IMG/VR virus record: IMGVR_UViG_3300043783_000023
Coordinates: 1-22,240 of that record
Source: a virus
Length of the DNA: 22,240 nt
Direction: 5' to 3' (one strand)
Notes under the pieces: model-generated
The model's input: only the letters and a program-made list of their open reading frames with translations
Told to the model about the DNA's origin: nothing
The model's database searches: none
Program-made: the position numbers and the translations under genes
In this document: one piece after another, positions 2,429-16,129 of the stretch
Numbering within the stretch: the stretch's first letter is position 1
Layout: every line of letters begins with the position of its first letter

Positions 2429-3036
2429 TGCGTGTTCTGGATTTATTTTGTGGTGCTGGTGGAGCCGCGATGGGATTGCACCGCGCTTGGCCTGGCGCAG
2501 AGATCGTTGGAGTGGATATTAAACCGCAGCCACGCTACCCATTCATATTCGTGCAAGCGGATGCGATGGAATATCCGTTAGGGGGATTTGATTTCGTGTG
2601 GGCTAGTCCGCCCTGTCAGCACTATACCCAGATGTTAAATCATGGGCTCACTTCCCGAGACGGTCATCCCGATCTTATAGGCAAGGTACGCGCCAGATTA
2701 TTTCGTAGTAGAACTAAGTGGGTAATAGAGAACGTCGCGGGTGCTCCGCTAGTTGATGCCGTCATGTTGTGTGGTTTGATGTTCGGCCTGCAAACCCTAC
2801 GACATCGGTATTTTGAGTCTCCAATCTGTTTGCGGGCACCCCAACACATAAAGCACGTCGGTAAAGGAATCCGCAATCAGCGTGACGGTGGGCAATATTA
2901 TCGTTGCTATGGCCATGAAACTGGCCAGCGCCAGTGGGGTAAGGCGATGGGCATTGATTGGATGAAGACTCCTGAGTTGGCGCAGGCCATTCCTCCAGCC
3001 TATTCCGAATACATAGCGAGGCAACTTGTACTGTAG
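2428..3036 (+). CDS. DNA (cytosine-5) methyltransferase, compact phage type (202 aa)
   Basis: The enzyme transfers a methyl group from S-adenosylmethionine to C5 of cytosine in DNA. Signature motifs are in order: motif I DLFCGAGG (residues ~5-12, SAM binding), motif IV ASPPCQ (~59-64, catalytic Cys63), motif VI ENV (101-103), a motif VIII-like RHRYFE (125-130) and a motif X-like IPPAYSEYI (188-196). At 202 residues it is much shorter than restriction-type Dcm/HhaI enzymes (over 300), with a reduced target-recognition region. Compact forms like this are common in phages. ATG 2428 overlaps the preceding stop (TGATG), and the end overlaps the large terminase by 11 bases. Self-protection of phage DNA against restriction is the likely role; sequence specificity cannot be read. 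Confidence 0.9.
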   Translation: MRVLDLFCGAGGAAMGLHRAWPGAEIVGVDIKPQPRYPFIFVQADAMEYPLGGFDFVWASPPCQHYTQMLNHGLTSRDGHPDLIGKVRARLFRSRTKWVIENVAGAPLVDAVMLCGLMFGLQTLRHRYFESPICLRAPQHIKHVGKGIRNQRDGGQYYRCYGHETGQRQWGKAMGIDWMKTPELAQAIPPAYSEYIARQLVL

Positions 3037-5299
3037 CCGCCACGTTGCTCGACGAATAGCCCTCGCCGAATCCGACCTCCGCGACCAAGGCATTCCCTTT
3101 GAATTGACCCGCCACGAAGTCGCCGAGATCGACGCCTTCGAGGATGAACTCCGGCGCGGCGGCAAATACCTATTCGGCCAAACCGGACTCCCCATCGCTA
3201 CCCAGAATCTCGAAGAGTGGCAGTCGCGCTGGATGCTCAACGAACAACTTCTGGTGATGTGCGATGCCCAGTACGCTCTCACCCGCTACGGTTGGGTAAC
3301 CGATGAGGAAGGCGTTATACGACGCTTCAGCTTCCGCATGGCGCAACAGTTGTTGTTCAACGTGATCGCGGACCTCGAAGACCGTGACGCGGCGATTGAA
3401 ATAATGATCCTGAAGGCGCGGCAGCTCGGCATGACCACAGTCGTCGAGCTCCTGATCATGTTCCGTATCATCTTCTCGAACGGCGTCAACGCCATCATCG
3501 CCTCCGCCGACCGGCAGAAATCCAAGATGATGGGCAAGAAACTTCTGATGGGCTACGATATGCTTCCCATCTGGCTGCGGCCCCAGTACACCTCGCGTGT
3601 GGAGACGGAAAATGGAGAACTCACGTTCGGCCAGCTCAATTCTGGCGTCTATGTACAACACGGTAACCAGATGTCCGGCATTGCTCGCGGCAGCACTCCG
3701 ACTCTATACCACCTCTCCGAGTGCGCGTCTTTCACCAATGCAAAGGAACAAATTGAAGCGTCTCTATTCAAGGCTGTCCACGCTTCACCTTCGATATTCG
3801 GAATCCTTGAGAGCACTGGAGAAGGTGACGAAGGTTGGTGGGCGGAAACTTGGCACTACTCGAAAGCCAACTGGGCCTCGCGCACCTGCCGCCTCTGCCC
3901 GATCTTCTTCCCCTGGGTCATCGGACGCGACCTCTATCCGAAGCCTGCGTGGCTGAAGATGCGCCCGGTGCCCGAAGCGTTCTACGAGCATCGACTCCCC
4001 GACACCAAGGAACACGTCGCTCGTGTCGAAGCTTACATCGCCAACACTCCTCTCCTCTCCCGCCAACTCGGCCCGCGATGGACCATGCCCATCGAGCAGC
4101 AATGGTTCTGGGAAGTCGGTCATGAGGAACACAAGGCCAAGGGTATGGAAGGGATTTGGTATCAGGAGATGGCCGGGGACGATATCGAAGCCTTGCAGCG
4201 CTCCACGGAATCCGTCTTCGGCCATGACGTGATGGTTAACGTAGAGAAGGCAGCAGCTACATCTTTTCTTGAATACGCGATCACTGGGCAGTCCATTGAG
4301 GACGACCCCAACAACGGCAAGGGGATGCCAAATACGGAGGATATTGATTATGGAACATCAGATAAACCAAGGCAGAGGGAAGTGGTCACCTTCAACTCCA
4401 ATCGTGGTGATTCCTATCGCTGGGAGCTTATTCCCCTCCATCACGACATGGCTTACGTCAACTCCCTCAAGACTAAACCTGATGCGTTCCGCGAGTACGC
4501 GAATGGTAGACTCATGGTGTTCTGCCCTCCGACTCCCGGTATCGACTACTCTATCGGAGTTGATACTTCTAATGGGATGGGAGAAGACTCCACAGTTATC
4601 TGTGTTACTGCGCCCGCTCAGAGACGTGGCCAGCCGGATATACAAGTTGCGGAGTTCCGTTCTGCCTATGTCTCCCATGTTGAGGCATATGCTTTTATAA
4701 TGTGCATCGCCACCTACTACTCCCGCTACATGGAAGACTCGACCCCGCACCGCAATCCCATCGTCGGCGTGGAGCAGATAGCGAGCGTGGGAGACGTGGC
4801 CCAAGTGCAGATGCGCAAGATGGGCTACACCCGCTTCCCCTCGTTCATCCGCTACGACGGCAAGGATCTCAAGAAGCAGAAGTCGAAGAAGATCGGCTGG
4901 TACACCAACGTTTGGTCGCGGCCCATTCTCGTAGACAGCTTCGTCCACTCCGTCCAAAATGGCTGGTACGTCATCAACTCTCCGTGGCTGATCGACGAAT
5001 GCAAACATTTCGAGGTCCACTACACCGCCAGCGGCAAGGAGAAGAAGGAGCATGAGGAAGGAGAGCATGACGACGGGCTGTTCGCGGCGGCGATCTCGGA
5101 AATAATAGTGAACGATCTGAAGTCCATGACCGAACGCTCTAAGAAGCGATTCGGTGCCGCCGACCAGCAGGCGCTCCCGCCGATCAACGTAGAAAAGTAT
5201 GCCGGGAATGTTTTCTCTACCAAGCGCGAGGGGAATCGTGCTATATCTATGAGCGATATCATTTACAGTTCCACAGCCGAGCTAGATAGGTGGCGCTGA
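3026..5299 (+). CDS. terL: Terminase large subunit (DNA-packaging ATPase/nuclease, 757 aa)
   Basis: This motor protein cuts concatemeric DNA and pumps it into the capsid through the portal. The N-terminal ATPase has a Walker A-like KARQLGMTT (residues 130-138), a Walker B-like LYHLSE (227-232) with the catalytic Glu, and a coupling motif ESTGEG (262-267). The C-terminal RNase H-like nuclease shows GVDTSNGMGEDST (Asp512), VGVEQ (Glu582) and EHDDGLFAA (Asp681/682), the expected three-acid metal site. At ~757 residues it is long for the family; an acidic, low-complexity stretch around 423-450 separates the two domains. The start is taken as TTG 3026 behind GAGG (3018-3021), overlapping the methyltransferase. 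An internal start cannot be excluded, since the next ATG is at about codon 70. Confidence 0.93.
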   Translation: MYCSRHVARRIALAESDLRDQGIPFELTRHEVAEIDAFEDELRRGGKYLFGQTGLPIATQNLEEWQSRWMLNEQLLVMCDAQYALTRYGWVTDEEGVIRRFSFRMAQQLLFNVIADLEDRDAAIEIMILKARQLGMTTVVELLIMFRIIFSNGVNAIIASADRQKSKMMGKKLLMGYDMLPIWLRPQYTSRVETENGELTFGQLNSGVYVQHGNQMSGIARGSTPTLYHLSECASFTNAKEQIEASLFKAVHASPSIFGILESTGEGDEGWWAETWHYSKANWASRTCRLCPIFFPWVIGRDLYPKPAWLKMRPVPEAFYEHRLPDTKEHVARVEAYIANTPLLSRQLGPRWTMPIEQQWFWEVGHEEHKAKGMEGIWYQEMAGDDIEALQRSTESVFGHDVMVNVEKAAATSFLEYAITGQSIEDDPNNGKGMPNTEDIDYGTSDKPRQREVVTFNSNRGDSYRWELIPLHHDMAYVNSLKTKPDAFREYANGRLMVFCPPTPGIDYSIGVDTSNGMGEDSTVICVTAPAQRRGQPDIQVAEFRSAYVSHVEAYAFIMCIATYYSRYMEDSTPHRNPIVGVEQIASVGDVAQVQMRKMGYTRFPSFIRYDGKDLKKQKSKKIGWYTNVWSRPILVDSFVHSVQNGWYVINSPWLIDECKHFEVHYTASGKEKKEHEEGEHDDGLFAAAISEIIVNDLKSMTERSKKRFGAADQQALPPINVEKYAGNVFSTKREGNRAISMSDIIYSSTAELDRWR

Positions 5300-6225: not shown

Positions 6226-6431
6226 GACTCTGCTTCGTCTTCTCGACGGGTGGCATCTCCCTCTGCGACCACGAAGACGCGCCGCCGATCATTGAGCTAG
6301 GCGAAGAAGTCGAGGACGAACATGGTAATGTGTATGCAGCTGAGAGACGTAGGGTTATGGAACGTCTTAGCCTCCTGACTCACATCGACCCGGTTAACGG
6401 GATCGTATTCTACGAAGAGGTCCATCGCTGA
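6222..6431 (+). CDS. Small acidic hypothetical protein (69 aa)
   Basis: GTG 6222 overlaps the previous stop (GTGA), and its TGA shares a base with the portal ATG (TGATG), so the gene is coupled on both sides. The product (MRLCFVFSTGGISLCDHEDA...) is about 69 residues and acidic, with a probable beta-rich N-terminus and a short basic helix (AAERRRVMERLSLL). No motif is recognised. The conserved operon position immediately before the portal and the tight overlaps argue that it is real. Confidence 0.6.
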   Translation: MRLCFVFSTGGISLCDHEDAPPIIELGEEVEDEHGNVYAAERRRVMERLSLLTHIDPVNGIVFYEEVHR

Positions 6432-8500
6432 TGCCCGGTGACGACGGCTACGACGTACCCTATCGCCAGTGGCAAGCCCCGCCTGCGGCATCGAAGGACG
6501 ATACAAAATTAGGATGGTTGCAAGAGTGCCAAGAAACTGGGGTGGCGTGGCTGAAATGCCAACGCGGCACCTCCGACTGGCGTAAATCCCTCGACGTGAT
6601 CTCCGGCAAGATCATGTCGGCGGATATTCCGCAGTACCGTTCGCAACTCAACACGAATCACCTCAAGCGGAATATTAGAGAGATCGTCGGCGTCCTCTCT
6701 AAACTCCGTCCGCTGTGGGGATACTCTTCCAACAACCCGGCCTTCGCGGCGCAGGCGAATCAAATGAACCTGCTGACCCGCGCCATCTTCCTAGAGAACG
6801 ACTTTGACCGCTCGATCAAAGAAGCACTGCAATATGCCGCAGCCACATGCACTGGATGGATACGTCCGATTTACTCCCGCGATCTGGTTAGCGGGGAAGG
6901 TTCTATCCAGCTTCTTAGCTATGGCGCTCCTTGTGTGCTTCCGACTCAGTTGCCTCCGTCAGGAAATTTTCAAAAAGCCTACGCCATGACCCTGCTTGAC
7001 GAGATGCCGATATTCATGGCGCACGCCCTCTTTCCTACGAAGCAGCATCTCCTGAAGCCGACCTCCTCTCTCTACTGGTACTCGAACGAAATCCACAAAT
7101 CGGCGCAAGGCAATATCTGGAAGCGCATCTTCGGGAAATCCACCTCCTCCGGTCCCAGCAACATGCCCGACCTGATGATCCCCATCCGCTACACTACGAT
7201 CATCGACCTCACGCGAAACACCACCCAGCAGATGATCCCGATGGGCGAGTTCGGCTCGACGTGGTACTACGAAGTCCCATTCATCGGCATGGATATCCCT
7301 GATGGCAATGGTGGAATGCGCAAAGCCGATGACAACGACGCTCGCCTCTATCCCTACCGCCGCCTGATGATCTCCTCCGAGAGCGTAGTCCTCTACGACG
7401 GCCCTTCATTCAACTGGCACGGACGCTCGGACCTGATTCCGTTCTCAACCGACCACTGGCCGTGGGAACCTCTGGGATTCTCGATGGTGCGCGACGGCTA
7501 CGATCTTCAGCAGACCATCACCGAGCAGGAGCGTGGCATGGCGGACAAGAAACGGGCGCAGCTTGACCCGGCGCTCGGTTACGATATCAACTCTGTGAGC
7601 AGCCGTGAAGCCAAGGCGTTCGACCCCATGCAACCCCGCGCCCGCGTTGGCTACGACGGCTCCCAAGTTGACAAGCCGTTCGTGATGCCCATCGACCCGC
7701 AGATTATCAAGCTCGACCCCACCGACTTCACTTGGCTCGAATACCTCCAGACCTCAATGGATTCGCAGCACGCGATCAAGGACGCACTGGCACTCGCCAA
7801 AGCCCGCATGGCAGGCGACGACTTGGAGAAATTACTGGAAGCTCTAGGCCCTATCATCGAGGATATGTCTCGCTCGATGGAGCCTCCCATTCGTGAGATG
7901 GCGGATCAGACGAAATATCTGATTCTGCAATATCTCCCCACCGCTCGCGTCATGCAATATATCGGCGAAGACAATATCACCCGCGAAACCTTCGACTACG
8001 ATCCTTCTCGACTTGTGCCATCGCACATGCCGGGAGAGAATCCGGGCACCGCCGACGCGCCTGCGAAATCCGCCTTCGATCAGATCAAGCGTGCGCGAAT
8101 GTTCGCGGGCAATCTGAAATATATGGTGACACCGCATTCGGCGCATGAGATCACTCAGCTAAAAATGCAGCTAGGACTTGTGCAACTCAAGAAAGCGGGC
8201 GTGAAGATAGATTCGCAGACACTCGCCGAGAGTTGGAATATTCCTAATTACGGACAAATAAAAGGAAGCACTGTGATGGAAAAGTGGCGTGAGGAGCAGG
8301 AAGAAGATTTACAATTCGCTGCTCGCATGAAAGAGATCGGAGTCGATGCCATGCCATCGCAACCCGGTGCGCCCGCTCCCGGCAAGTCCGGTCCTGAAGG
8401 TCGTCCCGCGTCTGGCAATCAAGCGCCAGCATTGAAGCAGCGCACCGATGGATCATCAACGATTACACAATCTGAAGGCGGGGGTCAAAACATACAGTGA
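6431..8500 (+). CDS. Portal protein (head-to-tail connector, 689 aa)
   Basis: Portal proteins form the dodecameric ring at one capsid vertex through which DNA enters and leaves. The ~689-residue length, the position after the large terminase and before the scaffold/coat genes, and the all-helical N-terminal region (HLKRNIREIVGVLSKLRPLW) fit a large podovirus-type portal. A mid-protein block around residues 335-360 (FSTDHWPWEPLGFSMVRDGY), followed by a helical stem region (DLQQTITEQERG), matches what I associate with this family. The C-terminal ~60 residues are low-complexity (Pro, Gly, Gln, Ser) and probably disordered. ATG 6431 overlaps the previous stop; the end overlaps the next gene by GTGA. 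The family is assigned by context and pattern, not by a catalytic motif. Confidence 0.8.
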   Translation: MPGDDGYDVPYRQWQAPPAASKDDTKLGWLQECQETGVAWLKCQRGTSDWRKSLDVISGKIMSADIPQYRSQLNTNHLKRNIREIVGVLSKLRPLWGYSSNNPAFAAQANQMNLLTRAIFLENDFDRSIKEALQYAAATCTGWIRPIYSRDLVSGEGSIQLLSYGAPCVLPTQLPPSGNFQKAYAMTLLDEMPIFMAHALFPTKQHLLKPTSSLYWYSNEIHKSAQGNIWKRIFGKSTSSGPSNMPDLMIPIRYTTIIDLTRNTTQQMIPMGEFGSTWYYEVPFIGMDIPDGNGGMRKADDNDARLYPYRRLMISSESVVLYDGPSFNWHGRSDLIPFSTDHWPWEPLGFSMVRDGYDLQQTITEQERGMADKKRAQLDPALGYDINSVSSREAKAFDPMQPRARVGYDGSQVDKPFVMPIDPQIIKLDPTDFTWLEYLQTSMDSQHAIKDALALAKARMAGDDLEKLLEALGPIIEDMSRSMEPPIREMADQTKYLILQYLPTARVMQYIGEDNITRETFDYDPSRLVPSHMPGENPGTADAPAKSAFDQIKRARMFAGNLKYMVTPHSAHEITQLKMQLGLVQLKKAGVKIDSQTLAESWNIPNYGQIKGSTVMEKWREEQEEDLQFAARMKEIGVDAMPSQPGAPAPGKSGPEGRPASGNQAPALKQRTDGSSTITQSEGGGQNIQ

Positions 8501-8861: not shown

Positions 8862-8972
8862 TTGACAATGCAATCGCGCCTGTGATTCACTCGCACTAGA
8901 GATTCCAACGTCGTTCAGTGTGGAACGCAACGAAGGGCTCCGGGGTTCACTCCCCCGGAGCTTTTTTATTTT
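8862..8972 (+). ncRNA. Non-coding interval: possible short RNA ending at a terminator
   Basis: Between the small peptide and the 22-codon ORF there is no convincing gene. A perfect -35 hexamer TTGACA sits at 8862-8867, but no good -10 lies 16-18 bases downstream (GATTCA or TTCACT), so promoter activity is doubtful. The interval contains a hairpin CGTTC/GAACG (8912-8916 with 8923-8927, six-base loop) and then the strong terminator. If transcribed from here it would yield an RNA of about 75-85 nt; it may equally be the 3' untranslated end of the portal operon. Confidence 0.25.
8937..8972 (+). terminator. Rho-independent terminator after the portal operon
   Basis: A nine-base-pair perfect stem, GCTCCGGGG (8937-8945) with CCCCGGAGC (8953-8961), closes a seven-base loop and is followed directly by six T residues and then ATTTT. 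This is a textbook intrinsic terminator. It separates the packaging/portal transcription unit from the head genes. The loop TTCACTC superficially resembles a tRNA T-loop, but no other tRNA arm is present. Confidence 0.9.
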
Positions 8973-9000
8973 GCCCAATCTAAGGAAGGAGGACAACACT

Positions 9001-9069
9001 ATGAGCATCGAGACTGGCTTCGGCCCTGTCGCCAACAAACGTCGGCACAAGGGAGGCAAGAAAAAGTAA
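9001..9069 (+). CDS. 22-residue basic peptide with a strong ribosome-binding site
   Basis: ATG 9001 is preceded by AAGGAAGGAGG (8982-8992), about as good a Shine-Dalgarno sequence as any in the window, at eight bases of spacing. The frame runs 22 codons to TAA 9067-9069 and encodes MSIETGFGPVANKRR followed by HKGGKKK. The extreme C-terminal basicity resembles the tail of the Gly/Lys-rich protein encoded just downstream. It could be a real micro-protein, a leader peptide controlling the structured RNA that begins immediately after its stop, or a remnant. The strong ribosome site is the main evidence. Confidence 0.45.
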   Translation: MSIETGFGPVANKRRHKGGKKK

Positions 9070-9160
9070 CCGTCCCCGACCCGGAAACGATACGGGTAAT
9101 GCCGTGTCTCCGAGATCGGATCAACCGAGGTAAGGGACGGCTCTGACAGGATGCCGTCCC
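9070..9160 (+). promoter_or_regulatory. Candidate structured cis-regulatory RNA with two competing pairings
   Basis: CCGTCCC at 9070-9076 can pair perfectly with GGGACGG at 9134-9140, closing a junction that holds ACCCG/CGGGT (9079-9083 with 9093-9097) and TCGG/CCGA (9116-9119 with 9125-9128). The same GGGACGGC (9134-9141) can instead pair with GCCGTCCC at 9153-9160, giving an eight-pair hairpin followed by CTCTTT. The two states are mutually exclusive, as in attenuators and riboswitches. The next gene's ribosome-binding site (GCGGAGG, 9170-9176) follows within ten bases. I do not recognise a known riboswitch class. Confidence 0.4.
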
Positions 9161-9183
9161 CTCTTTCACGCGGAGGATTCAAG

Positions 9184-9387
9184 ATGGCATACGGACGATC
9201 AACCGGGGCTCGCATGGGCGGCAAGGGCGGAGGCGGCTTCTCTCTAAAGACCGACATGTCCGACTCAGGAATGTCTCGCACCAAGAGTGGTCAAAAGAAA
9301 CCATTCGGCAAGTCTGGTGGGCATGGCTTGCGTGGATCGCAGATGGGCAAGGGCAAGGCCGGAAAACAAGCGAGGCGCAAGGTCTAA
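9184..9387 (+). CDS. Basic Gly/Lys/Ser-rich small protein (67 aa)
   Basis: The start is ATG 9184, behind GCGGAGG (9170-9176). An in-frame ATG at 9151 lies inside the structured RNA and is not preferred. The 67-residue product is almost wholly low-complexity and very basic (MGGKGGGGFSLKTDM, GKSGGHGLRGSQMGKGKAGK, then QARRKV), with few hydrophobic residues, so it is probably disordered. Its stop overlaps the next ATG (TAATGG). Possible roles include binding DNA or RNA, or an internal-virion role during head assembly; neither is shown by the sequence. Confidence 0.6.
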   Translation: MAYGRSTGARMGGKGGGGFSLKTDMSDSGMSRTKSGQKKPFGKSGGHGLRGSQMGKGKAGKQARRKV

Positions 9388-10085: not shown

Positions 10086-10916
10086 ATGCAGACTTATGCA
10101 GAGTTATTGAAATCTCAGGGAGCAACAGACGACGACATCAAAGTGCTGGCGACTCCACTCGCCGAGCGCGTCTACGCCAAGCAGCAGGAAGCCATCGTTG
10201 CCGCGCAAGCCGCCGCCGACAAAGCTGCCAAGCAGGCTGAGTCGTACCAGAAATGGTACAACGAGCAAGCCCTCCCCTACGTCTCCGAAGTCGAATCCAA
10301 ACTCAAGGTCAGTGAAGCTACTCTGACCGGGGAACGCGCTCGCCTGAAGGCATTGCAAGAAGCGGGCCTGATCGAAGTGGCCAACCAAGACGAAGCGGCC
10401 AAAAAGGCGGCAGAGGAAGCCGCGAAAGCAGGCAACGTGAATTTTGATCCAACCAAATTTGTCCCCCGAGAGCAATTCAATGAACTCGCCATTAAAGCCG
10501 CCGACTCTATCACCCTGGTCGCCGACCTCGCACAGGAACATGCCGCTCTCGGTCTTCCGCCTGTATCATGGCGCACGCTGAAGGCCGAAGCGGCAACGGC
10601 GAATCAAGACGTTGAGTCCTACTGGAAGACCAAGTTCAACGTGGAGCAGAAGCGCTCTGAACGTGCCGCCACTGAGAAAGCGGCTTACGAGAAGCAGATC
10701 GCGGACGCCGCCGTGGCCAAGTATCGCCAAGAGCATCCGGCGTCTGGAGTCAACCCGGCTCTCGGCTTCGGCGCTCCCTCGACCAATCCATTCACCAACA
10801 AGATTCCCTCCGCCTCCGACGCCACTATTCCGTGGAACCGTTCGGATTCGGAGAAGGTTAATTCACGCATCAACAAAGTTCTGGCAGCACATCCCGATAT
10901 GACGGGCAACGCATGA
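10086..10916 (+). CDS. Probable capsid scaffolding protein (276 aa)
   Basis: ATG 10086 follows AAGGAGACACC. The 276-residue protein is dominated by charged Ala/Lys/Glu/Gln coiled coil from ~30 to 115 (AKQQEAIVAAQAAADKAAKQ; EVESKLKVSEATLTGERARL), with a second helical block at ~175-225 and a Pro/Gly/Ser-rich C-terminus with a short conserved-looking end (EKVNSRINKVLAAHP). This composition and the place just before the major capsid gene are typical of tailed-phage scaffolds, which direct coat-protein assembly and then leave the head. A small homing-endonuclease gene now separates it from the coat gene. The assignment rests on composition and context only. Confidence 0.65.
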   Translation: MQTYAELLKSQGATDDDIKVLATPLAERVYAKQQEAIVAAQAAADKAAKQAESYQKWYNEQALPYVSEVESKLKVSEATLTGERARLKALQEAGLIEVANQDEAAKKAAEEAAKAGNVNFDPTKFVPREQFNELAIKAADSITLVADLAQEHAALGLPPVSWRTLKAEAATANQDVESYWKTKFNVEQKRSERAATEKAAYEKQIADAAVAKYRQEHPASGVNPALGFGAPSTNPFTNKIPSASDATIPWNRSDSEKVNSRINKVLAAHPDMTGNA

Positions 10917-11413
10917 GTGACATTTACAAGTCGGCAGGTAAGCGTGGTCAGTGGAAGGCCGAGGAGTTCGATGGCCTAAAACCTACGGTCTATGACTGGG
11001 TGCGGATGGCAGCTTTCATCGACGGTGAGGGCTGTATTCAAATCAACCCGTATAAGAAGACGCGCAAGGTTCAAGTACGAATCGTGATAATTAACACGAA
11101 CGAAATTCTTCCATTGTGGTTGCAAGAAACATTCGGTGGACACATTGTTCTACGTACCTTTGACAATCCCAATTGGAAGACCTCTTACGCTTGGAGTTGT
11201 ACGGCGCAGCGTGCTTGCTGGATTCTGCACAACTGCTTGCCGTGGTTCCTGCTGAAGTCGGCGCAGGCAAAATTGTTGATGGAACTCCAAGAGCATATTG
11301 ACACTACGCCTCATGGTAGGGGCACCAGACTTTCAGAAGCAGATCACATATATCGTGATGCGATACATTCTCAAGTAAAGAAGCTCAACGCTAAAGGGCC
11401 GAGAGTTGACTAA
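10913..11413 (+). CDS. LAGLIDADG-family homing endonuclease (166 aa)
   Basis: ATG 10913 overlaps the scaffold stop (ATGA). The motif MAAFIDGEG at residues 32-40 is a LAGLIDADG helix with the catalytic acidic residue (Glu39), followed by CIQI on the first beta strand. Residues 102-123 (CWILHNCLPWFLLKSAQAKL) match the second conserved helix seen in single-motif enzymes, which act as homodimers on a long asymmetric DNA site. It is free-standing rather than inside an intron or intein, wedged between scaffold and coat genes. Its codons are AT-richer than its neighbours, which fits recent acquisition. A good ribosome site for the coat gene directly follows, so the insertion leaves coat expression intact. 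Whether it still cuts cannot be read. Confidence 0.8.
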   Translation: MSDIYKSAGKRGQWKAEEFDGLKPTVYDWVRMAAFIDGEGCIQINPYKKTRKVQVRIVIINTNEILPLWLQETFGGHIVLRTFDNPNWKTSYAWSCTAQRACWILHNCLPWFLLKSAQAKLLMELQEHIDTTPHGRGTRLSEADHIYRDAIHSQVKKLNAKGPRVD

Positions 11414-11424
11414 GGAGAAAAACC

Positions 11425-12558
11425 GTGGCTGATCCGAGTTTTGATCAAATAAGTGCAACTACACTAGCCGATCTTCGCGATGACGTCGTGATAGATAACT
11501 TCTTTGTTGACTCAACGACTTTGCGCAAGCTCCGCCTTGCCGGTGCCCTCGACGACTATGCGGGCGGCACTGCCATGCAGAATCCGTTCCAGTACAACCG
11601 CGTGAACGGCGGCGCTATCGCTCCTGGCACCGACGTGAACGTGTCCCAAGTGCAGATTCTCGCCGCGACCGCCTTCCAGCCCAAGGAATACTTGGAGCAG
11701 ATCGGCGTCAACCTTTTTCAAGTCGGCGTCATCAACGCTGGCCCTGCTGGCAAGGTGAAGATCATAGATGCTTACATGACCAACGCGGTGCAAGCGGCGA
11801 ACACCGATCTCGGCATCGACATTTTTCATCACGGGCAGAACATCTCCGGTTCGAACCGCATCGTTTACATCAACGGTTTCGCCGAGGCCATGAACGACGG
11901 CGTGACCAACTCTTGGGACGGCAACATCTTCACCACCTATGGCGGTCAGACCCGCAATGGCGCAGTCGGCAACACTCTCAACTCTATCCCGATATGGCTG
12001 GGTGACCAGAACGGTAACACTGGCCAGCTCGCCTATAAGCCTCTCGTCGAAGGCATCCTCAATTGCGTGCAGCCGCCGGACTTCGGTGTGATGAACAAAG
12101 CCGCCTACGCCTACGCTCTTGAACGCCTTGATCCCAAACAGCGCTATGGCGAGGAGCAGGACGTGAAGATGGGCATGAGTGGATTCCGCGTCATGTCCAC
12201 CATGTTCTTCGTGGATAAACTGTGCCCATCGACAAAGTACGGTCAGTTACTCCCAACCGGCCTGTCGCAAACCACGGCGGTCAAACCTGCTACCTTTACC
12301 TCAGCAGCTTCGGGCATATCGTCTATCTCTAACCTCCCGGCTAACAAGACTATCTCCCCCGGCGAACCGATCTTCGTGCTGCGTTCGCAAGGCTGGAAGG
12401 TGCGACCGACTACCGATCCTGAATACAACTTCAACTTTACGCCGTGGGTGCGGTCGCAGACCAACGCGGATCTGGTCGTAGGATTCTTCAAGATCGCGCT
12501 GAACATCTATTGCCTCTCACCGAGAGACAACATGCATTTCTATGGAGCTGGATTCTAA
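11425..12558 (+). CDS. Major capsid protein (377 aa)
   Basis: GTG 11425 sits seven bases after AAGGAG, a strong site suited to a highly expressed gene. The 377-residue product begins with a short N-terminal arm (SFDQISATTLADLRDDVVID) and has features I associate with HK97-fold coat proteins: an early MQNPFQYNRVNGGAI loop, a long helical spine-like segment (VKIIDAYMTNAVQAANTDLG, ~112-131), a Gly/Asn-rich domain and a beta-rich C-terminus ending HFYGAGF. The codons are strongly GC-biased, unlike the endonuclease gene before it. Context (after the scaffold, before small decoration-like genes) and size support coat protein; the exact family was not checked by search. Confidence 0.8.
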   Translation: MADPSFDQISATTLADLRDDVVIDNFFVDSTTLRKLRLAGALDDYAGGTAMQNPFQYNRVNGGAIAPGTDVNVSQVQILAATAFQPKEYLEQIGVNLFQVGVINAGPAGKVKIIDAYMTNAVQAANTDLGIDIFHHGQNISGSNRIVYINGFAEAMNDGVTNSWDGNIFTTYGGQTRNGAVGNTLNSIPIWLGDQNGNTGQLAYKPLVEGILNCVQPPDFGVMNKAAYAYALERLDPKQRYGEEQDVKMGMSGFRVMSTMFFVDKLCPSTKYGQLLPTGLSQTTAVKPATFTSAASGISSISNLPANKTISPGEPIFVLRSQGWKVRPTTDPEYNFNFTPWVRSQTNADLVVGFFKIALNIYCLSPRDNMHFYGAGF

Positions 12559-13781: not shown

Positions 13782-14810
13782 ATGGCCTTACTCGATCTTC
13801 AGACGGAGTTACGCGGCGCGGTACCAAAGCTGCCTCTAAGTTATACGAAGACTCTCATCAACCGTGCCTACGCCGACCTCCGCCGCCAAAACCTCTGGTC
13901 CTTCCAACTCTTCGAGGGCCAGTGGATCGCACCGCCGCAAGTCGCCTCGACCGGCACCGTTACCACGACTCAGGGCTCCGTTCTTGTCAACTTAGATGCC
14001 ACTGCTACCGCCGCCATCAACACCCTCGCAACCTCCCAACCCTACTCCCTTATCACCCAGCGTCAGTTCCGCATCGCCAGCGGGGGCATCTACAATATCT
14101 GGGGATACAATCCGACGGCTAACGCAGGGAACGGTCAGTTGACGCTGGACCGCTGGTACGGCGAGCCATCGCTAACCAACGCCCAGTTCTCCATATTCCA
14201 GTGCTACTACGTCCCCATCGTCCAGAACTCCCCCATCCGCGACTTCCGCACTTGGATTAGCGTCCGCGACATGCAGAACTTCATCGACCTCTACACCGAG
14301 CGCTATCAGATGCGTGACATCGACGTGCAAGACCCACAACGGACTTGGTACGGCATCCCCTCGGATGTGATCCCTTATCAGAACGACCAGAATCCAGCCT
14401 CGCCGACCTACGGTTCGCTCATGTTCTTCCTGTGGGGGATTCCGACGTTCAATGTGAACTATCAGCTTTATGGGATTCGCGCTGGAACCGATCTCGTGAA
14501 GCCGACTGACACTTTGCCTTTGGTTATAGGACAGGATGTTGTTATAGCTAGAGCCAAATACTACGCCTACGAGTGGGCGGAGGCGAACAAGGATACGACG
14601 CCACGCAACTCAGGACCGGATTTTAAATTTCTCATGGGCGCTGCTAATAAAGAGTACGACACGTTGTTTAGAAAGTATCGTCAAGAGGACCGCGAAAGAG
14701 TTGACAACTGGTTCTCGACGCGCACCCGCTCGAACTACGCCAAGTGGCTGGCCTTCTACAACACTCAGGGCGGTGTGGCTTCCCCCGGATTCGCTGGAGT
14801 GCAATCCTGA
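13782..14810 (+). CDS. Probable head-tail adaptor / tail accessory protein (342 aa)
   Basis: The frame is open from 13659, with possible starts at TTG 13659, ATG 13662 (GGGGGAG nine bases upstream), GTG 13731 and ATG 13782. I use 13782 because the earlier ATG lies under the UUCG terminator and the GTG is only one base from its Shine-Dalgarno, but this is uncertain. The product begins MALLDLQTELRGAVPKLPLS, with an N-terminal helical segment (LINRAYADLRRQNLWSFQLF), then an aromatic-rich beta domain (YYVPIVQNSPIRDFRTWISV), and ends in a charged helix (YDTLFRKYRQEDRERV). Position between capsid genes and tail fibre and this organisation suit a connector that seals the portal. No diagnostic motif confirms it. 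Confidence 0.55.
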   Translation: MALLDLQTELRGAVPKLPLSYTKTLINRAYADLRRQNLWSFQLFEGQWIAPPQVASTGTVTTTQGSVLVNLDATATAAINTLATSQPYSLITQRQFRIASGGIYNIWGYNPTANAGNGQLTLDRWYGEPSLTNAQFSIFQCYYVPIVQNSPIRDFRTWISVRDMQNFIDLYTERYQMRDIDVQDPQRTWYGIPSDVIPYQNDQNPASPTYGSLMFFLWGIPTFNVNYQLYGIRAGTDLVKPTDTLPLVIGQDVVIARAKYYAYEWAEANKDTTPRNSGPDFKFLMGAANKEYDTLFRKYRQEDRERVDNWFSTRTRSNYAKWLAFYNTQGGVASPGFAGVQS

Positions 14811-16129
14811 TGCAAGCCTATACCGGATTCGCACAGCAGGGCGACGTTCAAGTAGTCACCGCTGGCCTATCCTCGACCACCGTGGTCGAAGGCTCCTACC
14901 CTCTCTGCACTGTAACAGTGAATTTGCATTCTGGTGGACTCGCCACCATCTATTCCGACAACGGCATCACCCCTCTGGCCAATCCCTTCACTGCGAACGC
15001 CAACGGTCAGTTCACTTTCTACGCCGCCAACAATCGCTACGACGTGATCCTTTCCAACAACGCTGGCTCCGGCCCCGCGTCCCCGATCACCATCTCTGAT
15101 ATCCTGCTGAACGATCCCGCAGGTGGCGCAGGCACGGTCAGCTCGGTCTTCGGTCGCACTGGGACAGTCATCGCTCAAACCGGAGACTATGCTGTCGCTC
15201 AGGTGACCGGTGCAGCTCCGCTGGCATCCCCCACACTGACCGGCGTTCCTACTGCACCGACCGCTTCTTTTGGCACTACTTCTACCCAGCTTGCTACGAC
15301 CGCGTTTGTTCAGGCGGCTATCCCGTCCATCGGCGTGACCAGTTTCAACTCCCGCACTGGTGCCGTCGTACCGACGACCGGCGACTACACCGTCTCCCAA
15401 GTTACCGGAGCCGCTCCGCTCGCCTCACCGACTTTCACCGGAGTCCCGGCTGCTCCGACTGCATCCTTTGGCACCAATACGACTCAGCTTGCGACCACGG
15501 CATTTGTGCAAGCCGCGCTACCCTCGACTGGCGTAATCACATGGAACACTCGCTCGGGTGCGGTCGTCCCCGTGAGCGGCGATTACACTGTAGCCCAAGT
15601 CACCGGCGCGGCCCCTTTAGCTTCCCCTGTGCTGACCGGCACCCCAACCGCTCCCACGCCATCTATCGGCGACGTATCCACCAAGATCGCTACCACGCAA
15701 TTCGTCAATCAGGCTGGTCTGTCGCCGATCATTACCGTTTACACGATCCTGACCTCGGCGCAACTCCTGGCATTGCACGGCACTCCAATCACCCTCGTTG
15801 CCGCGCCTGGCGCGGGATTTGCCGTATACCCCGTCGCCATCTCGCTTGGCTACGACTACAACACGACCGCATACACGATCAACGGCGACTCCCTGATCCT
15901 CGACTGGAACAACGCTGGCACGGTGTTCAAGATCACCTTTGCCGAAACCGGATTCCTCGATCAGACGGCATCGCAGATCGCATCGCTGGCCATCACCGCC
16001 GCGCATGGAGCCCTGACCCTGCTCAACAATCAGCCTTATACCATTGGCGCGTCGGGGGGATCGAATATGACTTTGGGGAATGGAACCTTGACGGTGTATC
16101 TTTATTACGTGTTGTTGACATTGCAATAG
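14810..16129 (+). CDS. Tail fibre protein with three internal repeats (439 aa)
   Basis: ATG 14810 overlaps the preceding TGA (TGATG); in-frame codons upstream belong to the previous gene. The N-terminal ~110 residues (MQAYTGFAQQGDVQVVTAGL...) are a beta-rich domain that probably anchors the fibre. Residues ~114-305 contain three tandem modules of 65-66 residues, each with 'RTG.V.....GDY.V.QVTGAAPLASP' followed by 'TG.P.APT.S' and an ATTAFVQAA-like helix, resembling phage tail-fibre repeats. The C-terminal ~130 residues form a separate domain (YTILTSAQLLALHGTPITLV...) and probably include the receptor-contacting or trimerising tip. Fibres bind the host surface. No chaperone gene is obvious nearby. 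Confidence 0.8.
   Translation: MQAYTGFAQQGDVQVVTAGLSSTTVVEGSYPLCTVTVNLHSGGLATIYSDNGITPLANPFTANANGQFTFYAANNRYDVILSNNAGSGPASPITISDILLNDPAGGAGTVSSVFGRTGTVIAQTGDYAVAQVTGAAPLASPTLTGVPTAPTASFGTTSTQLATTAFVQAAIPSIGVTSFNSRTGAVVPTTGDYTVSQVTGAAPLASPTFTGVPAAPTASFGTNTTQLATTAFVQAALPSTGVITWNTRSGAVVPVSGDYTVAQVTGAAPLASPVLTGTPTAPTPSIGDVSTKIATTQFVNQAGLSPIITVYTILTSAQLLALHGTPITLVAAPGAGFAVYPVAISLGYDYNTTAYTINGDSLILDWNNAGTVFKITFAETGFLDQTASQIASLAITAAHGALTLLNNQPYTIGASGGSNMTLGNGTLTVYLYYVLLTLQ
15149..15721 (+). repeat. Three tandem fibre repeats of 195/198 bases
   Basis: The units begin at 15149, 15344 and 15542, so the periods are 195 and 198 bases (65 and 66 codons); the third unit is slightly shorter. All share QVTGAAPLASP and an STQLATTAFVQAA-type end; the third has diverged to STKIATTQFVNQA. 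Synonymous codons differ between copies, so the duplication is not recent. Confidence 0.8.

Follow-up and report, generated by a model that had tools for sequence, protein, structure and literature searches.

The RNA element and its surroundings

The window analysed here is the complete 22,240-nt stretch of a phage record (IMGVR_UViG_3300043783_000023). An RNA element occupies positions 9070-9160; it is flanked by two small genes and belongs to the head-building region in a group of soil phages. Terminase-like and portal-like open reading frames (ORFs) lie upstream, and on the 3' side of the RNA the order is a Gly/Lys-rich gene, a Pro-rich gene, a probable scaffold gene and the gene for the major head protein; some of the family matches underlying this context are weak. 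No family in Pfam or PHROGs was found for the 67-aa protein encoded directly downstream of the RNA. In the list below, P1, P1b, P2 and P3 are stems of the upstream state, J1/2 and J3/1 are junction strands, and H is the downstream hairpin.

3026-5299, upstream of the RNA: terminase-like ORF
6431-8500, upstream of the RNA: portal-like ORF
8986-8992, plus strand: Shine-Dalgarno sequence AAGGAGG of the tiny ORF, with comparable sites at other loci
9001-9069, plus strand: tiny ORF of 22 codons for a very basic peptide (MSIETGFGPVANKRRHKGGKKK, then stop); its TAA stop codon (9067-9069) abuts the 5' strand of P1
9070-9076, plus strand: 5' strand of P1, CCGTCCC, pairing with 9134-9140
9079-9084, plus strand: 5' strand of P1b, ACC-CGG, pairing with 9125-9131
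9085-9088, plus strand: junction strand J1/2, AAAC, among the most conserved unpaired stretches
9089-9108, plus strand: hairpin P2, GATACGG/CCGTGTC (9089-9095 with 9102-9108), with variable loop and length
9109-9120, plus strand: hairpin P3, UCC..GGA (9109-9111 with 9118-9120), adjoining P2 with zero linker
9121-9124, plus strand: junction strand J3/1, UCAA, largely kept in the seed alignment
9125-9131, plus strand: 3' strand of P1b, CCG-A-GGT, with A9128 bulged, pairing with 9079-9084
9134-9141, plus strand: shared switching strand GGGACGGC (GGGACGG at 9134-9140, extended to 9141), both the 3' strand of P1 and the 5' strand of H
9153-9160, plus strand: 3' strand of H, GCCGTCCC, competing with the 5' strand of P1; a partner strand is present in 43 of 43 loci
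9172-9176, plus strand: Shine-Dalgarno sequence GGAGG of the next gene, as read from the sequence
9184-9387, plus strand: small Gly/Lys/Arg-rich gene (67 aa), the first after the RNA
11425-12558, downstream of the RNA: major head protein

The GGGACGG at 9134-9140 has two alternative partners. It can pair with CCGTCCC at 9070-9076 to form P1 or, extended by one pair, with GCCGTCCC at 9153-9160 to form H. P1 closes a compact three-way junction made of P1b, P2 and P3 and the strands AAAC and UCAA. Folded in isolation, the upstream state had an energy of -36.3 kcal/mol (z = -4.4; 1 of 200 dinucleotide shuffles was as good), and the downstream hairpin H alone reached -19.4 kcal/mol (z = -4.2; 0 of 200 shuffles). 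A hairpin as good as H arose in about 0.7% of base shuffles of the 40 nt downstream in the window. The two states were close in energy, with a mean difference (H state minus P1 state) of -1.6 kcal/mol over 40 loci and of -2.8 kcal/mol in the window. A preliminary description of this DNA had given the pairing positions of both helices, which proved exact to the base. It had also named a single stable fold as an outcome that would speak against a switch; the states were instead nearly isoenergetic and neither dominated.

The same description placed a 22-codon ORF with an excellent ribosome site upstream, with P1 starting at the first base after its stop, exactly as is found in the window. Just 5' of this tiny ORF lies a strong terminator-like hairpin (8932-8966; 14 pairs with a T-rich tail), preceded by a TTGACA box at 8862-8867. 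About ten relatives carry a promoter-like TTGACA-N16-18 followed by such a terminator, an arrangement that resembles late promoters dependent on antitermination. In the window itself the -10 is weak, and the scan called no promoter there. Further downstream, an ORF between the scaffold-like and head-protein genes (10913-11413) showed a sub-threshold match to LAGLIDADG homing endonucleases, and a tail-fibre-like ORF (14744-16129) contains internal repeats (GAAPLASPTLTGVPTAPTASFGT...).

Occurrence in related phages

Relatives were gathered from IMG/VR by searches with the 67-aa protein, the head protein and the RNA pattern, and the element was located with two covariance models (R1 and R2) combined with reading by eye. 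The element was found in 43 loci of a single lineage of tailed phages, with the aptamer domain in 41-43 of them. Both of the mutually exclusive stems proposed in the preliminary description recur across these 43 homologous loci. In the most distant carriers (L119, L120, L130, L131, L136 and L138) the head protein is only about 31-37% identical. Five loci with weak model matches (L119, L120, L131, L026, L040) and three with little or no model support (L130, L136, L138) were accepted by eye, as their position, tiny ORF and both stems fit.

When 84,980 bacterial and archaeal genomes were scanned with a strict pattern, only two matches were returned. One of these, L086, sits on a contig titled as a Methanoregulaceae MAG (an archaeon bin) that carries the head protein, tiny ORF and RNA of this lineage; it is probably a misbinned phage contig. 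The other, L087, was dismissed as a chance match of 18 bits that covers the core only and lacks P1. A further candidate, L092 (17-21 bits, without tiny ORF), was likewise set aside as a likely chance match. The scan thus indicates, without proving it, that the element is absent from bacteria, as a diverged bacterial version could escape so strict a pattern.

Within the phage collection, the only relatives that bear names were the Tunturiibacter phages Tunturi_1 and Tunturi_2, which were isolated on an Acidobacteriota host and share 31% (head protein) and 28-29% (portal) identity with the window. The RNA element was found in neither of them. In a quick, midpoint-rooted head-protein tree with some long branches, the element appears to date back to the ancestor of a 54-row clade and to have been lost several times. 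The L012 clade has kept an H-like hairpin and has no three-way junction, and the clade of L027, L028, L034 and L037 has neither. Some close relatives can dispense with the element. L012-L016 and L135 were noted as relatives in which the tiny ORF is still followed by a downstream hairpin and the three-way junction is absent.

The preliminary description recognised no known class and called for a covariance-model search of Rfam. With Rfam 15, neither the window nor ten relatives gave a match at the gathering cut-off, and nothing convincing appeared at E <= 10; the weak matches (ctRNA_p42d on the upstream terminator, sot2652 and others) were far below the cut-offs and were discarded. No description of the element was found in the literature covered, which did not extend to a 2017 survey of 224 RNA candidates.

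Conservation of the junction, the competing stems and the tiny ORF

Compensatory base changes, which the preliminary description had proposed to look for in homologues, turned out to be abundant. Among 31 aligned sequences, 14 of the 21 aptamer pairs showed two-sided changes and 92.6% of the cells can pair. The covariation score was 0.425 in an alignment fitted to the structure, which favours the fold; shuffles gave 0.146 and slid partners no more than 0.091. We also applied a purpose-written tree-based null; since gappy columns were left out, its printed 3' coordinates may lie as much as two bases too low. The top seven column pairs among all those tested were all proposed pairs; four of them had E <= 0.004, and two pairs in P1/P1b had E of about 0.13-0.14. 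G-U cells outnumbered A-C cells (52 versus 24), which suggests that the plus strand is the RNA.

The changes were spread over the individual stems. In P2, five of the six modelled pairs changed on both sides, and three pairs reached E = 0.004 against the tree-based null. The closing pair of P3 is U-A in 18 loci and C-G in 12 (E = 0.004). The two enclosed hairpins of the preliminary description correspond to P2 and P3 within the junction closed by P1, an aptamer-like fold with strong compensatory change. In P1b, the A-U pair at 9079/9131 is replaced by G-C, C-G or U-A, and a continuous helix of 6 bp (CTCTGG/CCAGAG) is possible in L079. The junction strand J1/2 reads GGAAACGA without exception in ten seed sequences and varies to UGAC, ACAAC, AGAAC or AAUG in relatives; the junction letters drift within the lineage, more than those of a rigid small-molecule pocket usually would. 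A G.G mismatch at the third pair of P2 (GAG...GUC) recurs in L021, L023, L018, L061, L119, L120 and L130 and is possibly a recognition feature.

Conservation of both P1 and H was assessed by a swap test, in which the shared strand of each locus was scored against its own partner strands and against those of other phages. Own partners were strongly preferred for P1 (z = 10) and for H (z = 7.4, or 8.3 with the extended shared strand), and none of 20,000 permutations reached the observed total for either helix; these values are somewhat optimistic, because the shared strand was placed in each locus by maximising P1 and H jointly, which favours own partners. Between disjoint pairs of nearest relatives, the own partner of P1 beat the swapped one in 18 of 19 comparisons and lost in none. 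The corresponding counts for H were 10 versus 3 with 6 ties, or 13 versus 5 with 1 tie (P ~0.05), so phylogeny-aware evidence from these comparisons lends modest, marginal support to H by itself. When the downstream stretch was base-shuffled for comparison, H was individually significant (P < 0.05) in 21 of the 43 loci. Of the nucleotides counted in both helices, 279 of 305 are able to pair in both. The three strands also change together in single loci: in L079 the outer pair is altered in all three (GCGTCCC / GGGACGC / GCGTCCC), and in L018 and L023 the 3' strand of H tracks the shared strand (GGGACGA / TCGTCCC).

All 43 loci have a tiny basic ORF of 12-28 codons with a Shine-Dalgarno-like site 5' of the RNA. 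Its stop codon is TAA or TAG only, and P1 starts 0-5 nt past this stop in 39 of the 42 loci scored. In the few loci that were read, the frames behind the stop soon reach another stop, and readthrough of the stop codon or frameshifting was set aside for that reason. Close pairs of equal length differed mostly at third codon positions (3, 1 and 9; 1, 1 and 5; and 2, 1 and 8 differences by codon position), which marks the tiny ORF as protein-coding and implies that it is translated; more distant pairs, aligned without gaps, showed no such excess. Arg is present in the tiny ORF of every one of the 43 RNA-bearing loci and missing from the tiny ORFs of seven RNA-less relatives (L012, L027, L028, L034, L037, L101 and Tunturi_2), an association that has few independent losses behind it, with distant RNA-less phages having Arg in comparable small ORFs.

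A candidate two-state switch in the head operon

The structure with its exclusive stems is very probably real; it is conserved in one phage lineage, is apparently unnamed, and is likely to regulate the head operon in cis. Several possible outputs of the two states were considered. A conserved T-run after H was not found among the 43 loci, where the letters following the hairpin read, for example, actaaaaaagg in L138, ataaaaac in L102 and accccacttt in L079. The T-rich run that the preliminary description saw behind H is weak in the window (CTCTTTC, 9161-9167) and absent or C/A-rich in most relatives. An intrinsic terminator was rejected as the role of H, as the T-run is not conserved. It is highly improbable that H terminates transcription with P1 as its anti-terminator, as in transcription attenuation: H is short and rich in G+C, and four of the eight bases that follow it in the window are T, but the T-run is missing in most relatives and a terminator scan did not call H. 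Forced-state folding of 40 loci revealed no consistent dependence on the state in the cost of opening the ribosome site, the start codon or the whole initiation region (P = 0.12, 0.12 and 0.85, respectively). In some loci (L023, L039) the C-rich strand, once freed, was seen to mask the next Shine-Dalgarno sequence or start codon, but no consistent direction emerged over the 40 loci, and masking was discarded as a common output.

We consider it somewhat probable that the element is a cis-acting two-state mRNA switch that couples the tiny ORF to the head operon, with the ribosome, the Arg-rich peptide or both as input. In one state, P1 would close a sensor consisting of the three-way junction of P1/P1b, P2 and P3. 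In the other, pairing of the downstream strand with the 3' strand of P1 would create hairpin H and open the sensor. Through the choice of state, the tiny ORF and the head-gene operon that follows would be coupled in their expression, with translation of the following gene, elongation and RNA stability as candidate outputs. A terminating ribosome is suggested as the most likely input because P1 sits right at the stop codon of the tiny ORF: with a ribosome footprint of the usual size, a ribosome terminating there would cover the 5' strand of P1 and favour H. Binding of a basic phage protein may provide a second input, probably together with the first, and the leading candidate is the Arg-rich product of the tiny ORF itself, which would amount to autogenous control. 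More tentatively, an Arg-containing basic peptide of 12-28 residues may bind the junction RNA that starts at its own stop codon, flip the states and so set head-gene expression, which would represent a new class of phage-encoded switch.

Two of these components can also be read on their own. A purely ribosome-driven attenuator, in which the terminating ribosome picks the stem and the junction is a ligand-free folding scaffold, agrees with P1 starting within 0-5 nt of the stop in 39 of 42 loci and with the exclusive use of TAA and TAG; it leaves the conserved unpaired AAAC and UCAA and the zero-length joint of P2 and P3 unexplained, however, and we regard it as rather unlikely. That H would be the sole functional element, next to a decaying or accessory junction, has a very small probability: the L012 clade does retain an H-like hairpin without the junction, but the junction stems covary more strongly than H.

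Other readings assign the junction a different activity. A metabolite riboswitch, whose junction would bind a small molecule or ion and steer P1 versus H for the head genes, would account for the compact three-way junction, its conserved letters and the classic shared-strand expression platform. Such a role is nevertheless unlikely, as the strict genome scan yielded, apart from one chance match, only a misbinned contig from this phage lineage, no metabolic genes were recognised nearby, and the junction letters vary within the lineage. A riboswitch widespread in bacteria found no support in that scan. A self-cleaving ribozyme or RNase processing site that cuts between the tiny ORF and the head genes and is switched off by H might be suspected from the compact junction, the conserved letters and the position between two genes; with no Rfam ribozyme family matched and no known catalytic core recognised, we give it very little credence. 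The preferred reading remains that of a cis-acting switch between the tiny ORF and the head operon.

The likeness of the element to a riboswitch or a leader-peptide attenuator lies in its exclusive stems, and we do not claim membership in either class. Of the features expected of a riboswitch, we found a sensor domain with compensatory base changes and an expression platform exclusive with P1 (the shared strand in 43 loci, with P ~0.05 for H in the phylogeny-paired comparison), and did not find a terminator or ribosome-site access that depends on the state. Riboswitches with a shared P1 strand have the same plan, namely a P1-closed junction domain whose 3' strand is re-used downstream, at nearly equal energies. 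In contrast, the present element occurs only in phages in these searches, lies between two head-region genes, has no Rfam match and no known ligand, and showed neither a terminator nor conserved sequestration of the ribosome site.

A comparison with leader-peptide attenuators of the trp/his and erm types leads to a similar picture. Here too a short ORF with a good ribosome site, translated to judge from the codon-position pattern, ends at the first strand of the exclusive stems. The downstream hairpin did not prove to be an intrinsic terminator. The parallel drawn in the preliminary description is therefore reasonable for the placement of P1 behind the stop and does not extend to a terminator output. 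Unlike these attenuators, the element has a conserved basic protein instead of a codon run for one amino acid, lacks a T-run, and has an elaborate conserved junction inserted. Like autogenous mRNA sites that bind the product of their own operon, such as phage coat-protein operators and ribosomal-protein leaders, the element is a structured RNA; it lies among virion genes and next to a gene whose basic product could bind RNA. Phage coat-protein operators each consist of one hairpin, whereas two exclusive states are conserved here and protein binding is putative.

Descriptions of structured RNA switches that belong to the virion operons of phages are scarce, and few phage-linked candidates were found in the literature. 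The present element keeps one architecture, with covariation, across phages that share about one third of their capsid residues, and follows a simple positional rule: stop codon, then P1. A possible parallel is the pRNA of phage phi29, in which a phage RNA likewise forms a compact three-way junction and has packaging and head genes close by. Unlike for pRNA, nothing suggests a stand-alone RNA here, and the competing hairpin and the position at a stop codon fit an element acting in cis within an mRNA.
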